From Halanaerobium hydrogeniformans (lineage in GTDB: Bacteria > Bacillota > Halanaerobiia > Halanaerobiales > Halanaerobiaceae): a DNA stretch of 64,000 nt. How positions within the stretch are numbered: position 1 is the first letter of the stretch; the number at the start of each line of letters is the position of its first letter. The notes beneath the pieces are model-generated. The model did not search any database. It worked only from the letters and a program-made list of their open reading frames with translations, and was not told the origin of the DNA. Made by a program: the position numbers and the translations under genes. The DNA is taken from positions 1,922,001-1,986,000 of the forward strand of contig NC_014654.1 in assembly GCF_000166415.1 (NCBI RefSeq), written 5' to 3'. Below are positions 9,899-50,262 of this stretch, in pieces.

Positions 9899-10306
9899 AT
9901 GGAACACAATAGTTTAGAAACTGCAAAAACTGCTATAAAAATGGCGATTTCTACACGTGAAGAAGAAAAACACTTAAAAAAAGATTTTGCAAAAAAAGGT
10001 ATTAAAACAGCAGCAGTTGATTTTGGCGGTGAATTTAATAAATCTGTGCCTGATATCATTGAAAGAGCTGTTATAGCAGCCAAAAGAGAAAATATAATTG
10101 ATAGTTCACATGTTGCTCAAGGTGCAGTAGCTGGAGCAGCACATGATGCACTGGCTCAAATGATGCCTAGAACAATGGGCTTAAATGTAGGTGGTAAAAT
10201 AGGAATCTCGCGCAGTGGTGAACATATAGTAGTTGCAATATTTTTTGGGGTAGGAATGTTTAACTTAAATGAAGTTACAGTAGGCTTGAGCCATCGCTCA
10301 CTCTAA
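9899..10306 (+). CDS. HutP family protein
   Basis: Protein of 135 aa homologous to HutP, the histidine- and Mg2+-dependent RNA-binding antiterminator of Bacillus hut operons. Visible family stretches: TAVDFGGEFNKSVPDIIERAV-like core, VAQGAVAGAAHDALAQMM, and GKIGISRSGEHIVVAIFFGVGMFNL. Some histidines of the Bacillus active site may be replaced; alignment was not possible here. AGAGGGAG lies 8 nt before the ATG at 9899 (a GTG at 9890 overlaps it). No hut genes are nearby; instead an attenuated ABC transporter operon follows directly, which suggests it as target. Confidence 0.82.
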   Translation: MEHNSLETAKTAIKMAISTREEEKHLKKDFAKKGIKTAAVDFGGEFNKSVPDIIERAVIAAKRENIIDSSHVAQGAVAGAAHDALAQMMPRTMGLNVGGKIGISRSGEHIVVAIFFGVGMFNLNEVTVGLSHRSL

Positions 10307-10351: not shown

Positions 10352-10381
10352 TTGACAAAATAGCGCAATTAATAGTATAAT
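10352..10381 (+). promoter_or_regulatory. Sigma-A promoter of the ABC transporter operon leader
   Basis: TTGACA (10352-10357) and TATAAT (10376-10381) with an 18-bp spacer, giving a transcript start near 10388 and a leader of about 200 nt. Confidence 0.75.
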
Positions 10382-10387
10382 AAAGAA

Positions 10388-10586
10388 AATCAAATAACTG
10401 GTAGCATGGTAATACGGTAGGAGAATTTTATAGGGATAGCTATCTGCATTTTTACTATAATCTAACTTTTTATGGGTAGATTATGGCTAATCTTGCTGTT
10501 AACTATTATTAACACTCCACTAGGAGTGTTTTTTTTATAGCTAATTGTTATTCCCCACTACCAGTTAGAAAGGGGATTAGTAAATT
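10388..10586 (+). promoter_or_regulatory. Structured 5' leader with attenuator, unclassified RNA switch
   Basis: The leader holds an ATAATCTA/TAGATTAT hairpin (10457-10484), a self-complementary GATAGCTATC, and then an intrinsic terminator (10511-10536). After the terminator, TCCCC (10552-10556) can pair with GGGGA of the ribosome site (10572-10576). The loop between them carries CTACCAGTTA (10558-10567), an exact complement of TAACTGGTAG at the leader's 5' end (10395-10404). This makes both attenuation and ribosome-site masking possible. I cannot match it to a T-box or a named riboswitch. Several UAG/GAG triplets at 10402-10438 recall HutP sites. Confidence 0.6.
10511..10536 (+). terminator. 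Leader terminator upstream of the ABC transporter genes
   Basis: AACACTCC and GGAGTGTT with a 4-nt loop, followed by a run of T, 50 bp before the first structural gene: an attenuator position rather than the end of a gene. Confidence 0.88.
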
Positions 10587-11555
10587 ATGAAAAAAAATTT
10601 ATTTGCTTTATCAATTTTAATTTTAATTTTTATCATGGCTTTTTCTTTTTCAGTTTCCGCTCAGCAAGAATTGAGAATTGGGATCTCTCAATTTGTTGAG
10701 CACCCGGCACTGGATGCAGCTAGAGAAGGTTTTATAGAAGGCCTGGCTGAAGAGGGGTTTGGAGAAGACAGGGTAGAGTTTATAACTCAAAATGCTCAGG
10801 CAGATTTTGCAACTGCTCAATCTATTGCGCAAAGATTTAGAAGTCAAAATTTAGACATGGTTTTGGCAATTGCTACACCTAATTCTCAGGCTGCAGCGAA
10901 CGTTATATCTGATATGCCCGTTTTATTTACAGCAGTAACTGACCCGGTAGAAGCTGGTATAGTTAATAGTATGGAAGCACCAGGTGCAAATATTACTGGT
11001 ACAACAGATATGAATCCAGTAGCTGATCAATTAGCTTTAATTTTAGAATTTATTCCAGAAGCTCAAGATGTTGGCATCCTTTATAATCCTGGGGAAGTAA
11101 ACTCAGTTGTTCAGGTTGAGATCGCTAAAGAAGCAGCTGCAGAAATGGATATCAATTTACATGAAGCTACTGTTACTAATAGTAGTGAAGTAACACTAGC
11201 AGCTTCTTCCTTAGTTGATAAAGTTGATGCTATATATGTTCCAACTGATAATATTATAGTTTCAGCACTTCCTTCAGTATTAAATATAACAAATAATAAT
11301 AATATTCCTGTTTTTGCTTCAGAAAATGGTCAGGTTGAACAGGGAGCGATTGCAACTTTAGGCATAGATTATAAATTGTTGGGTATGCAAACTGGTAGAA
11401 TGGCTGCTAGAGTATTGAATGGTGAAAACACTTCTCAAATGGCTGTTGAATCATCTGATGAACTTAAATTATATATTAATCAAACAGCAGCTGCTAATTT
11501 AAATCTTGATATTCCAGAAAGTGTTTTAGATAGAGCAGATGTAATTTACGAATAA
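10587..11555 (+). CDS. ABC transporter substrate-binding protein (ABC_sub_bind / TrpX-like)
   Basis: Extracytoplasmic binding protein of 322 aa with a Sec signal peptide (hydrophobic stretch ending FSVSAQQ). The body shows the PF04392 pattern: RIGISQFVEHPALDAAREGF, ATPNSQAA, VLFTAVTDPVEAGIV, NITGTTD and GVLYNPGE-like segments. Members include TrpX of streptococci (tryptophan uptake), but other substrates are served too, so the ligand is open. First gene of an operon with a BPD_transp_2 permease and an ATPase. Confidence 0.88.
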   Translation: MKKNLFALSILILIFIMAFSFSVSAQQELRIGISQFVEHPALDAAREGFIEGLAEEGFGEDRVEFITQNAQADFATAQSIAQRFRSQNLDMVLAIATPNSQAAANVISDMPVLFTAVTDPVEAGIVNSMEAPGANITGTTDMNPVADQLALILEFIPEAQDVGILYNPGEVNSVVQVEIAKEAAAEMDINLHEATVTNSSEVTLAASSLVDKVDAIYVPTDNIIVSALPSVLNITNNNNIPVFASENGQVEQGAIATLGIDYKLLGMQTGRMAARVLNGENTSQMAVESSDELKLYINQTAAANLNLDIPESVLDRADVIYE

Positions 11556-11610
11556 GAAATAAATAAAAAATAATTGTTAAAATAATCTTGTATACGGTGT
11601 GAGGTGGCTT

Positions 11611-12477
11611 ATGAGTCTAAGTTTTGCAATAACATCCCTCGAACAGGGCCTAGCGTTTTCAATTATGGCTCTTGGGGTTTTTATATCTTTTAGAATTTTA
11701 GATTTTGCAGATTTGACCGTTGATGGCAGTCTCCCCCTGGGGGCTGCTGTCTCGGCCAGAATGATAATGGCAGGATATAATCCATTTTATTCTCTTGCTG
11801 CAGCGGTTTTAGCTGGAGCTGGAGCTGGTTTTATTACTGGCTTTTTAAATACTAAACTTAAAATTGCTCCACTTTTAGCTGGAATTTTAACAATGACTTC
11901 CCTCTATTCAATTAATTTAAGAGTTATGGGGAGACCAAATATACCTTTAATTGGAAGAGAGAATATCTTTACTAAAATAAGAGATTTAGGGATAGAATAT
12001 CCCTGGTATAATCTTCTTTTGCTTTTGTTAATAATAATATTGGTCAAATTGTTGCTTGATGCATTTCTTAATACACAAATAGGATTTGCAATGAGAGCAA
12101 CCGGAGATAACCCACAGATGATTAGAAGCATGGGTATAAGTACTAATACCATGAAAATGTTAGGCCTGATAATTTCAAATGCTTTAGTTTCTTTATCAGG
12201 GGCATTAGTTGGACAGTATCAGGGCTTTGCAGATGTTAATATGGGTGTTGGTGCAATCATTGCAGGGCTTGCCTCTGTAATAATTGGAGAAGTTATTATT
12301 GGAACTAAGTCAATGATTGTAGCGACTTTTGGAGTCATTGTTGGTTCTATTCTTTACCGTTTTAGTATTTCTATCGCCCTTAACTTAGGCCTTGCAGCTT
12401 CTGACCTAAAACTCTTAACTGCGATTTTAGTAGTAATCTTTTTATCAACTCCCCGAATTAGAAAGGCATTGAGGTGA
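11611..12477 (+). CDS. ABC transporter permease (TrpY-like, BPD_transp_2)
   Basis: Membrane protein of 288 aa with about 8-9 helices; LGVFISFRILDFADLTVDGSLPLGAA and the cytoplasmic coupling segment GFAMRATGDNPQMIRSMGI are typical of the branched-chain/TrpY permease class. The ATG at 11611 follows GAGGTGG at good distance; a GTG at 11599 overlaps that site. It is 6 bp from the downstream ATPase. Confidence 0.88.
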   Translation: MSLSFAITSLEQGLAFSIMALGVFISFRILDFADLTVDGSLPLGAAVSARMIMAGYNPFYSLAAAVLAGAGAGFITGFLNTKLKIAPLLAGILTMTSLYSINLRVMGRPNIPLIGRENIFTKIRDLGIEYPWYNLLLLLLIIILVKLLLDAFLNTQIGFAMRATGDNPQMIRSMGISTNTMKMLGLIISNALVSLSGALVGQYQGFADVNMGVGAIIAGLASVIIGEVIIGTKSMIVATFGVIVGSILYRFSISIALNLGLAASDLKLLTAILVVIFLSTPRIRKALR

Positions 12478-12483
12478 TAAAAA

Positions 12484-13281
12484 ATGCTTGAGATAAATAA
12501 TTTAACAAAAATATTTTATAAAGGTACTCCAAATGAAAATACTGCAGTAAAAAATATTAATTTAGATGTTAAAAACGGTGATTTTATTACTATAGTTGGT
12601 AGTAATGGAGCAGGAAAATCTACTCTATTAAATTCAATTGCTGGTGTTTTCCCTGTTGACAAAGGCAGAATAATTCTTGATGATCAAGATATAACAAAAA
12701 AATGTGAATATAAATGTGCACAAAATATAGGAAGAGTTTTTCAAAACCCACTTGCAGGTACTTCACCTGAAATGACCATTGAAGAAAACCTTTCTCTTGC
12801 TATATCAAAATCTAAAAACATTTCTTTAAGATGGGGTTTAACTAAAAGCAAACGCAAAAGAATGCGTGATCATTTAGAGAAGATTGATCTGGGTTTAGAA
12901 AAAAGATTGACCACAAAAGTAAAACTACTATCAGGTGGACAAAGGCAGGCTTTAACTCTTTTAATGGCAACTGTAGCTAATCCTAGTTTATTGTTATTAG
13001 ATGAGCATACTGCAGCTCTTGATCCTGCTACGGCAATTAAAATTAAGAATTTAACTTCTGAACTTGTAAACGAAAATAACATTACAACTCTTATGATTAC
13101 CCATAACATGGAAGATGCCATTAAACTAGGGAATCGTTTAATTATGATGGATGGTGGAGAAGTAATTTATGATATCAAAAAAGAGGAAAAAGAAAATCTT
13201 ACTATAGAAAAATTAATGAAAATGTTTGAAGTTAAACATGGTGGCAAATTTACCAATGATAGAATGCTTTTATCTGTCTAG
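12484..13281 (+). CDS. ABC transporter ATP-binding protein (TrpZ-like)
   Basis: ABC ATPase of 265 aa: Walker A GSNGAGKST, Q-loop VFQNP, signature LLSGGQRQAL, Walker B LLLLDEHTAALD and the switch His in MITHNMEDA. It completes a one-permease, one-ATPase importer with the two preceding genes. No terminator follows directly; the IS605 remnant begins within about 40 bp. Confidence 0.92.
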   Translation: MLEINNLTKIFYKGTPNENTAVKNINLDVKNGDFITIVGSNGAGKSTLLNSIAGVFPVDKGRIILDDQDITKKCEYKCAQNIGRVFQNPLAGTSPEMTIEENLSLAISKSKNISLRWGLTKSKRKRMRDHLEKIDLGLEKRLTTKVKLLSGGQRQALTLLMATVANPSLLLLDEHTAALDPATAIKIKNLTSELVNENNITTLMITHNMEDAIKLGNRLIMMDGGEVIYDIKKEEKENLTIEKLMKMFEVKHGGKFTNDRMLLSV

Positions 13282-13445: not shown

Positions 13446-14763
13446 TTAGGATACCCTTAATCTTGAAGGATTGTCCACAAATCCATTATCTCTCGCCTCT
13501 TTGATAGGTCTGAGAATACATTTATCGTTATGGTATTTACGAAGTATATTAAAGCTACCATTCTGATCAGCATTAATTAATAGGCCCTCGTTAGTTTTAA
13601 AGAGACCTCTAGTAATTCTTCTGGATTTATCATAGTTACTTTTATTTATTTTTTCCAGATCTACTGAACTACATCCAGAAGTATAGCTTTCATCAATTTC
13701 AACAACTTTGATACCTTTTAGTTTAGCTTTGTATTCAATTAATTTTTTTAATCTCTGGATCGGTATTTGGACAAAAGATTTAAGTTTGCTGCATTGTTTA
13801 ATATTTTTTATATCTCCGATTACAATAGTTTCTACTTGATTTTCAATTGCTAAATCAACTATTTTGCAACTAGCTTTATGGAGATAATCTCTAATATAAT
13901 TTTTTCTCTTTAATCTCAGATATTTTATTCGTTTAGTATCTCTAATTTTACTGGTAGCTAACTGCCTCATTCTAATGCTTTGTAGTCTGGCAATTTCTTT
14001 ATTAAAATAAGAATTTTTGGATTTAATAGTTTTACCATTGATAATATAACAATCAGAATTGTTTTTAAATGTTAAAGTAGCCAAATTATCAAGACCTATA
14101 TCTACTGCCATTATGTTAGAGTTATTATTTTCTTTTATTTCCTCGACCTTATAGATGATTAGTAGATACCATCTTTTAGAAATGCGGTCCTGCTTAATCT
14201 TTATCTGCTGGACAGCATCTAAATCTATAATGCTTTGAACTGCTTCAGGCAGCTCAAAATTAAGAGGGCCAAATCGAATACGGTCATACTAAAGCTTTCC
14301 TTGCGTATTATAAATTAAAAGCTTTAGTGACCTTCACATTATATTTAGATTGTATCTTTTTAGATAAGGATAAGAGTAATTTATTATCTCTAATTCTAAC
14401 AGCTAAATTGGTAAAAATTATTTCACAGGGATTACTGTTCATATGTTTAAAATTAGGTGATCCTGGCTGACCCTTATATTTTTGAGGATTCTTTTTATAA
14501 TCTTTGAGAGAATTAAAAAAACTTTTCCAGTCCTGAGCTAACAGCTTTAATGCCTGTTGTCTGTTATGGGAGTGAAGGTAGTCATTATGCCAGTTATTTT
14601 TATATCTAGTTTCTAATTCAGTATAGACAGCTTTTACATCTTTATTATTTTTAATCTGATAATTGACTGTATTATATAATTTAGAGCAATGCCAGGCTAA
14701 TTCATTAATTATTACTAATTGCTTATGGCTTAATTTAGGCTTGAATTTAAATGATAATCGCAT
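13446..14763 (-). pseudogene. tnpB: TnpB (OrfB, IS605 family), disrupted
   Basis: The N-terminal part runs from 14763 to a stop at 14308 (LSFKFKPKLSHKQLVIINELAWHC...). The rest is in another frame, open from about 14285 (RIRFGPLNFELPEAVQ...) to 13446, with a TAG directly before it. An out-of-register tract with repeated AAAGCTTT around 14285-14335 has broken the gene. The RuvC-like core begins AVDIGLDNLATL (Asp kept), but the second motif reads IVIGDIKN, where most TnpB proteins have Glu. The C-terminal region shows NADQNGSFNIL and no CxxC zinc-ribbon pairs. Expected to be inactive. Confidence 0.85.
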
Positions 14764-43391: not shown

Positions 43392-43425
43392 TTCATTCCT
43401 CCTAAAAATTGATATTTAGACATTA

Positions 43426-43530
43426 AAAAACTTCTTAACAGTCAGACTGATAAGAAGTTAACAAATTCAGAGCATTAAAATAGCTCTATGTTTTCTCCTT
43501 ATCTGCCTCACTGGACTGATTTAAAGGAAA
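43426..43530 (-). promoter_or_regulatory. PyrR-dependent attenuator before pyrP
   Basis: On the minus strand the PyrR binding loop (43499-43528) contains ATCAGTCCAGTGAGGC closed by CCTTT/AAGG, followed after 40 nt by a terminator with arms AACTTCTTATCAGTC and GACTGTTAAGAAGTT and a T run (43426-43459). UMP-bound PyrR would favour termination. Confidence 0.92.
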
Positions 43531-43533
43531 TAT

Positions 43534-44094
<561 letters not shown>

Positions 44095-44136
44095 CTATAT
44101 TACCTCCTTTGGGGAAGAATATAAATTTACATAAAA

Positions 44137-44213
44137 AAACCTTCTTAGGGCAAATAAGAAGGTATTTAAATTCTATATTTTCCCTTACTAGCCTCGCTGG
44201 ACTAATTTAAAAG
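44137..44213 (-). promoter_or_regulatory. PyrR-dependent attenuator before pyrR
   Basis: Binding loop at 44182-44213 with TTAGTCCAGCGAGGCTAG, followed by the terminator ACCTTCTTA/TAAGAAGGT and seven T (44132-44163) on the minus strand. Confidence 0.92.
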
Positions 44214-44233
44214 AATATTTTTTATTTGAATTA

Positions 44234-50043: not shown

Positions 50044-50235
50044 AAAACCTTCTCTCCAGAAACTGGCAAGAAGGTTTAATAATCATTGATAAGCTTTTAA
50101 GTTGCTTTATTTTAGACAATAAATATCTATTAGAAAAATTTACTAAAAGATATAAAAGCACTTAGAATTTTGCTGCTCTCTAATTTTTATAAAGCAATCT
50201 TCCTTTGCCAGCCTCTCTGGACTGATTTAAAAGGA
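50044..50235 (-). promoter_or_regulatory. PyrR-dependent attenuator before carA
   Basis: Binding loop at 50201-50235 (ATCAGTCCAGAGAGGCTGG closed by TCCTTTT/AAAGGA), then about 110 nt, then the terminator AAACCTTCTTGCCAG/CTGGAGAGAAGGTTT with T-rich tail (50044-50078). The spacing between loop and terminator is longer than at the other two sites. Of the gap 49977-50375 the rest holds only the promoter. Confidence 0.9.
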
Positions 50236-50262
50236 CAAATATATTTTTTATTATTGTGCTTT

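Follow-up and report, generated by a model that had tools for sequence, protein, structure and literature searches.

An 8-nt-period GGUA(G/A) array points to attenuation by a HutP-family protein ahead of a TrpXYZ-type importer operon in Halanaerobium

The leader of an importer operon of Halanaerobium hydrogeniformans was analyzed in a window of 64,000 nucleotides, i.e. the whole stretch of DNA under study. The functional core of this leader is a set of three GGUA(G/A) motifs, a periodic array and not a folded domain, which lies downstream of a gene for a HutP-family protein of the subfamily here called group I. We propose a protein-dependent attenuator: ligand-bound group I HutP would cover the array and repress the importer, the ligand being most likely an aromatic amino acid. 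This reading is considered probable. One suggestion of the original prediction was control of the importer by the adjacent HutP homologue via NAG triplets; comparative evidence strongly supports this view, and it is from such evidence that we infer the binding itself, the ligand class and the repressive sign.

The genome comprises 2.61 Mb in one contig. The consensus promoter and the terminator with its 8-bp stem and T run, both expected ahead of the first importer gene, were confirmed, and promoters resembling TTGACA-18-TATAAT were also found upstream of the importer operon in relatives. The operon encodes a substrate-binding protein (SBP) of family PF04392, a permease and an ATPase, which corresponds to the TrpXYZ architecture. 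With the TrpX equivalog model NF041285 (NCBIfam) the SBP reached 302 bits, below the cut-off of 390 bits; therefore, the importer substrate is taken as aromatic-type by family, an assignment that stops short of proven tryptophan specificity. The same kind of importer is known from Streptococcus suis, where TrpX serves tryptophan uptake and trpXYZ is under T-box control (PMC9382623); here, no T-box precedes the operon and an array apparently read by a protein takes its place.

Features of the hutP-importer region. Positions are those of the window, position 1 being its first nucleotide.
Feature	Position	Strand	Details
HutP-family gene, group I, proposed RNA-binding regulator	9899-10306	+	PF09021, 154.5 bits vs cut-off 25
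Sigma-A type promoter, importer operon	10352-10381	+	TTGACA-18-TATAAT; consensus matches 12/12
Long-range helix, 5' strand	10395-10404	+	overlaps first repeat; exact 10-nt complement of 10558-10567
Target array	10400-10423	+	GGUAG / GGUAA / GGUAG(GAG), 8-nt period; starts 10400, 10408, 10416
Interval from array to terminator, variable hairpin region	10424-10508	+	foldable
Intrinsic terminator	10511-10537	+	AACACUCC-ACUA-GGAGUGUU + U tract; stem 10511-10530, 8 bp
Ribosome-site hairpin	10552-10576	+	UCCCC 10552-10556 / GGGGA 10572-10576
TrpX-like substrate-binding protein (SBP)	10587-11555	+	PF04392, 295 bits
Importer permease, TrpY-like	11599-12477	+	PF02653, 100.6 bits
Importer ATPase, TrpZ-like	12484-13281	+	PF00005, 109 bits

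Two further features of the window were recorded. An IS605-type OrfB/TnpB remnant is located just 3' of the importer (13446-14763, minus strand); it is spread over two frames and looks broken, with PF01385 and PF07282 in its C-terminal piece. Additionally, three PyrR binding-site leaders (RF00515) lie on the minus strand at 43423-43531, 44130-44217 and 50118-50238.

UAG/GAG triplets had been described in the leader. They are present, but not as loose triplets: they form the strict array GGUAG-N3-GGUAA-N3-GGUAG (in context ACU-GGUAG-CAU-GGUAA-UAC-GGUAG-GAG), which is unique within the genome. The exact complementarity over 10 nt between the 5' end of the RNA and the loop of a distant hairpin could also be reproduced (taactggtag/ctaccagtta). 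An exact helix of at least 10 nt at such a range occurred in 3 of 200 dinucleotide shuffles, and RNAalifold recovered the long-range helix unprompted. The covariance analysis suggested for related leaders showed that this pairing is conserved, with 98% of the pairs retained in 11 leaders of the window's family (f1); covariation in the f1 alignment was not above that of shuffles because the helices are (nearly) invariant. The terminator stem was 100% paired across 11 relatives. The hairpin able to hide the ribosome site is likewise present and conserved in f1 leaders, with one two-sided change, and the array shows complementarity to its 5' arm and loop (CCACUACCAGUUA). Length and sequence of the interval between array and terminator differ widely among relatives; its hairpin region probably brings the third repeat close to the 5' arm of the terminator.

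This 5' arm is able to pair with the third repeat, giving a candidate antiterminator in which GGUAGGAG pairs with CUCC(UU)ACC and equivalents. The complementarity was retained despite changes on both strands in Desulfosporosinus (G075), in another Clostridia genome (G069) and in family f11. Cognate duplexes of array and terminator arm were more stable than swapped ones, both with hand-cut arrays (19/50000 permutations) and with automatic arrays (213/20000 permutations). Complementarity of the array to the anti-Shine-Dalgarno strand, cognate versus permuted, gave 14/20000 over ten leaders and 760/20000 when one leader per lineage was used. Furthermore, the Thermovorax array GCGGUAGUAUGG is complementary to CCAUACUUACCG located behind the terminator.

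A pattern search in 38 genomes of the order returned one array per genome in 18 of them, always in the importer leader, and the reversed pattern, used as control, had no match in the 38 genomes. Upstream of trpX, the three-repeat run was present in all hutP-linked copies of families f1 (13/13) and f7 (5/5); it was found neither before homologous trpX operons in genomes without group I HutP (0/8) nor before paralogous trpX copies from related array-bearing genomes (0/2). One genome (G020) harbors two trpX copies: the copy on the hutP contig carries the array and a second array over the start codon, the other copy carries none. In 14 hutP-trpX gaps, UAG at 8-nt spacing was observed 32 times with 2.9 expected, and the spacing peaked at exactly 8 and also at 16. 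At 66 non-TrpX Clostridia loci, the region before hutP showed neither a UAG spacing peak nor an array. The gene pair itself, whose conservation the original prediction had proposed as a check, holds together: group I hutP adjoins trpX in all 13 f1 genomes that keep the locus, and also in f7. Arrays were also located directly on translation start sites. A second array (AGGAGGAUGGUAGUAUGGUAGG) overlaps the Shine-Dalgarno/start region of trpX in six Clostridia, and in hutP-aroH gaps GNAG at 8-nt spacing lies over the aroH Shine-Dalgarno site (14 observed, 1.5 expected); only GNAG gave a strong signal there, plain AG spacing being weak (z 1.5).

Scanning 84,980 species genomes yielded at least 228 confirmed relatives, and the best 80 of these at least 228, group I loci from Clostridia and Halanaerobia, were analyzed for their neighbors. 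Downstream neighbors were trpXYZ in 14, aroH in 44, aroF in 3 and cmk in 8 cases; at 11 of the best 80 loci none of the tested aromatic genes was nearby. In families f10 and f11, the operon hutP-aroH-hisC-aroF-tyrA-aroA begins with group I hutP. The leader of this operon contains two repeat clusters and a terminator, with GUAG at 8-nt spacing occurring 26 times against 0.3 expected (z 32). In the same families, a trpX importer far from hutP is preceded by leaders that are rich in UAG and show a spacing peak at 8 nt (GUAG at 8-nt spacing, z 16; UAGs at other spacings also occur), so that the target would be reached in trans. An identical trans arrangement, with arrays before a distant trpX, was found in G075 and G069. 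In G075, a second trpX copy has a T-box upstream, the specifier of which reads as UGG (Trp) in the alignment.

A tyrosine phenol-lyase-like gene of family f9 has an array upstream, and a second triplet cluster covers the Shine-Dalgarno site of this gene. Upstream of it, together with the two UAG/NAG clusters, a T-box was identified (L105:1733-1966, minus strand, 128.7 bits), whose specifier appears to be UAC (Tyr); two aromatic-responsive RNA systems are thus seemingly stacked in one leader. GUAG arrays of 8-nt period were additionally observed in f10, where they lie ahead of a glutamate dehydrogenase-like gene (L108, L110) and, followed by terminator-like hairpins, upstream of a gene whose product has a helix-turn-helix-like N terminus and no Pfam match (L109, L126). 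These arrays possibly mark additional genes under group I HutP control.

The proposed mechanism is as follows. Group I HutP together with its ligand (Trp, Tyr or Phe) would bind the 5'-terminal UAG-type array of the importer mRNA. Owing to its complementarity to the terminator arm as well as to the anti-Shine-Dalgarno strand, a free array would pair via its third repeat with the terminator 5' arm, acting as antiterminator and allowing transcription to continue, and via its first and second repeats with the anti-Shine-Dalgarno strand, which would open the ribosome site. With the array covered, the terminator would form and the ribosome site would close, so that an ample supply of the amino acid would repress uptake. 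Given predicted targets among genes of aromatic biosynthesis, uptake and degradation, the ligand is most economically taken to be an aromatic amino acid; Trp, Tyr and Phe are indistinguishable on the present evidence. We regard as unlikely a HutP-array system opposite in sign or in ligand logic, in which the free protein binds or binding activates. Such a scheme would agree with B. subtilis HutP, which is an activator, and the direction of control is unreadable from sequence alone; however, binding to arrays that lie on the Shine-Dalgarno site or start codon of trpX or aroH could hardly be other than repressive, the complementarity between array and antiterminator argues for the same sign, and end-product repression fits genes of biosynthesis and uptake.

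The gene just upstream of the operon had been named a HutP homologue, and its match to PF09021 indeed lies above the Pfam gathering cut-off. The AlphaFold model of group I HutP (pLDDT 91.4) was compared with solved structures, the closest of which were HutP (best Z 17.8, 2.1 A, 128 residues, 18% identity); all top fold matches in the PDB were HutP with Z 15.4-17.8, and the next fold followed at Z 7.6. A PDB sequence search with group I HutP or its profile gave no HutP match, and fold comparison is the only link between group I and solved HutP. Residues were compared using the B. subtilis HutP sequence, checked against PDB 1vea. At the positions of H73, H77 and H138, which we take to be the Mg2+/L-His ligands, group I has G, G and E, both glycines being invariant; E81 corresponds to E or D. 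Most of the RNA-contact and ligand residues of B. subtilis HutP have changed in group I, hence neither sign nor ligand can be transferred from it. Judged by these residues, the histidine-magnesium site is not preserved, and a different ligand is therefore expected.

Group I and the B. subtilis HutP/hut operon share the fold, the Pfam family and the kind of target, namely clusters of three NAG repeats before a terminator, such clusters being bound by HutP (PMC7430163). The tandem NAG target of the B. subtilis type is recognizable in the UAG/NAG arrays as a sequence feature, with an 8-nt period. B. subtilis HutP targets have a triplet period of 7; group I further differs by its 18% identity, the loss of the His/Mg ligands, its targets in aromatic biosynthesis and TrpXYZ-type import with no hutH nearby, and its predicted role as repressor where B. 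subtilis HutP activates. The first of the readings offered by the original prediction was histidine- and Mg2+-dependent triplet binding as in B. subtilis, with antitermination and induction of the importer. The HutP fold and the NAG-type triplets are in line with this idea, but it is very unlikely given the replacement of H73 and H77 by invariant glycines and of H138 by glutamate, the aromatic genes as targets, and the arrays on Shine-Dalgarno sites, where binding would repress. Furthermore, no hutH (histidine ammonia-lyase, PF00221) was found in the window's genome, and no histidine ammonia-lyase at the best 80 hutP loci out of at least 228.

HutP proteins in these genomes are of three types: group I of about 140 aa, to which the protein of the window belongs and which forms a subfamily apart from B. 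subtilis HutP, group II of about 160 aa, and group III, CBS-HutP. A group II gene of the window's genome (G000:C1:2352745-2353131) is located just before an ABC exporter-like gene; its product keeps H138, not H73/H77. In group III (G000:C1:2135054-2135422 in the window's genome), located between ispF and gltX in Halanaerobia, the HutP domain is fused to two CBS-like domains; the C-terminal part scores as HutP, and the CBS domains are a reading of the sequence. Group III is possibly a ligand-gated HutP RNA-binding protein.

Because TRAP (MtrB) is encoded in the window's genome, as in 47 of 59 class genomes, a reading of the UAG/GAG triplets by TRAP, with HutP as a bystander, was treated as a serious rival. 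Binding of TRAP to (G/U)AG repeats promotes termination, but its sites consist of 11 triplets, about seven of which are needed for stable binding (PMC4027176), versus three triplets at 8-nt period here. Arrays were also present in 13 genomes without PF02081, i.e. five of f7 and eight Clostridia with a cis hutP-trpX array; accordingly, TRAP was found in 0/5 f7 genomes and in 0/8 TrpX-linked Clostridia keeping arrays, and f3 genomes possessing TRAP and trpX have neither group I HutP nor arrays. By its distribution the array accompanies group I HutP, not TRAP, which makes TRAP an extremely unlikely reader. The predicted logic of the HutP attenuator nevertheless resembles that of TRAP, which attenuates trp genes and also has RBS-blocking sites: an amino-acid-bound oligomeric protein would cover UAG/GAG repeats over an antiterminator or a Shine-Dalgarno site. 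The differences are an unrelated protein, arrays with an 8-nt period and three (to six) repeats compared to 11 closely spaced ones, a wider aromatic regulon, and occurrence in TRAP-less genomes.

At the leader, an Rfam search of window and leader up to E 10 gave chance matches only and no family, neither a riboswitch nor a T-box; the best match at relaxed threshold had E 2 on the wrong strand, and none reached a gathering score. That the leader RNA itself binds the importer ligand as a new riboswitch, as had also been suggested, is scarcely credible: the 5' segment, the terminator and the ribosome-site hairpin are highly conserved and RNAalifold supports the long-range helix, but a match to any Rfam family is lacking, what is conserved is a short periodic repeat of variable copy number that co-occurs with the HutP gene and recurs before other genes in other architectures, and the central region with its intervening stem varies freely.

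In the open-access literature searched, we found no description of such a group I HutP system and no paper connecting HutP to chorismate mutase or to Halanaerobium. From sequence comparison, the system looks like an undescribed counterpart of TRAP for aromatic uptake and synthesis in Clostridia and Halanaerobia. With some reserve, we favor the broader view that group I HutP constitutes a widespread class of aromatic-sensing regulators with a remodelled, non-histidine pocket, which would use NAG arrays of 8-nt period to control both termination and translation of genes for aromatic biosynthesis and uptake in Clostridia and Halanaerobia.

Hundreds of genomes encode proteins that carry no annotation beyond 'HutP family' and have no hut genes nearby; for many of them, an RNA target, a regulon and a likely class of ligand can now be predicted. 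A 134-residue protein and a 30-nt RNA suffice for direct tests of the reading. Under it, aromatic genes would have, next to TRAP and the T-box, a third RNA logic that responds to amino acids. If true, the HutP fold has been re-used for another amino acid, and TRAP-like attenuation arose on two unrelated folds.
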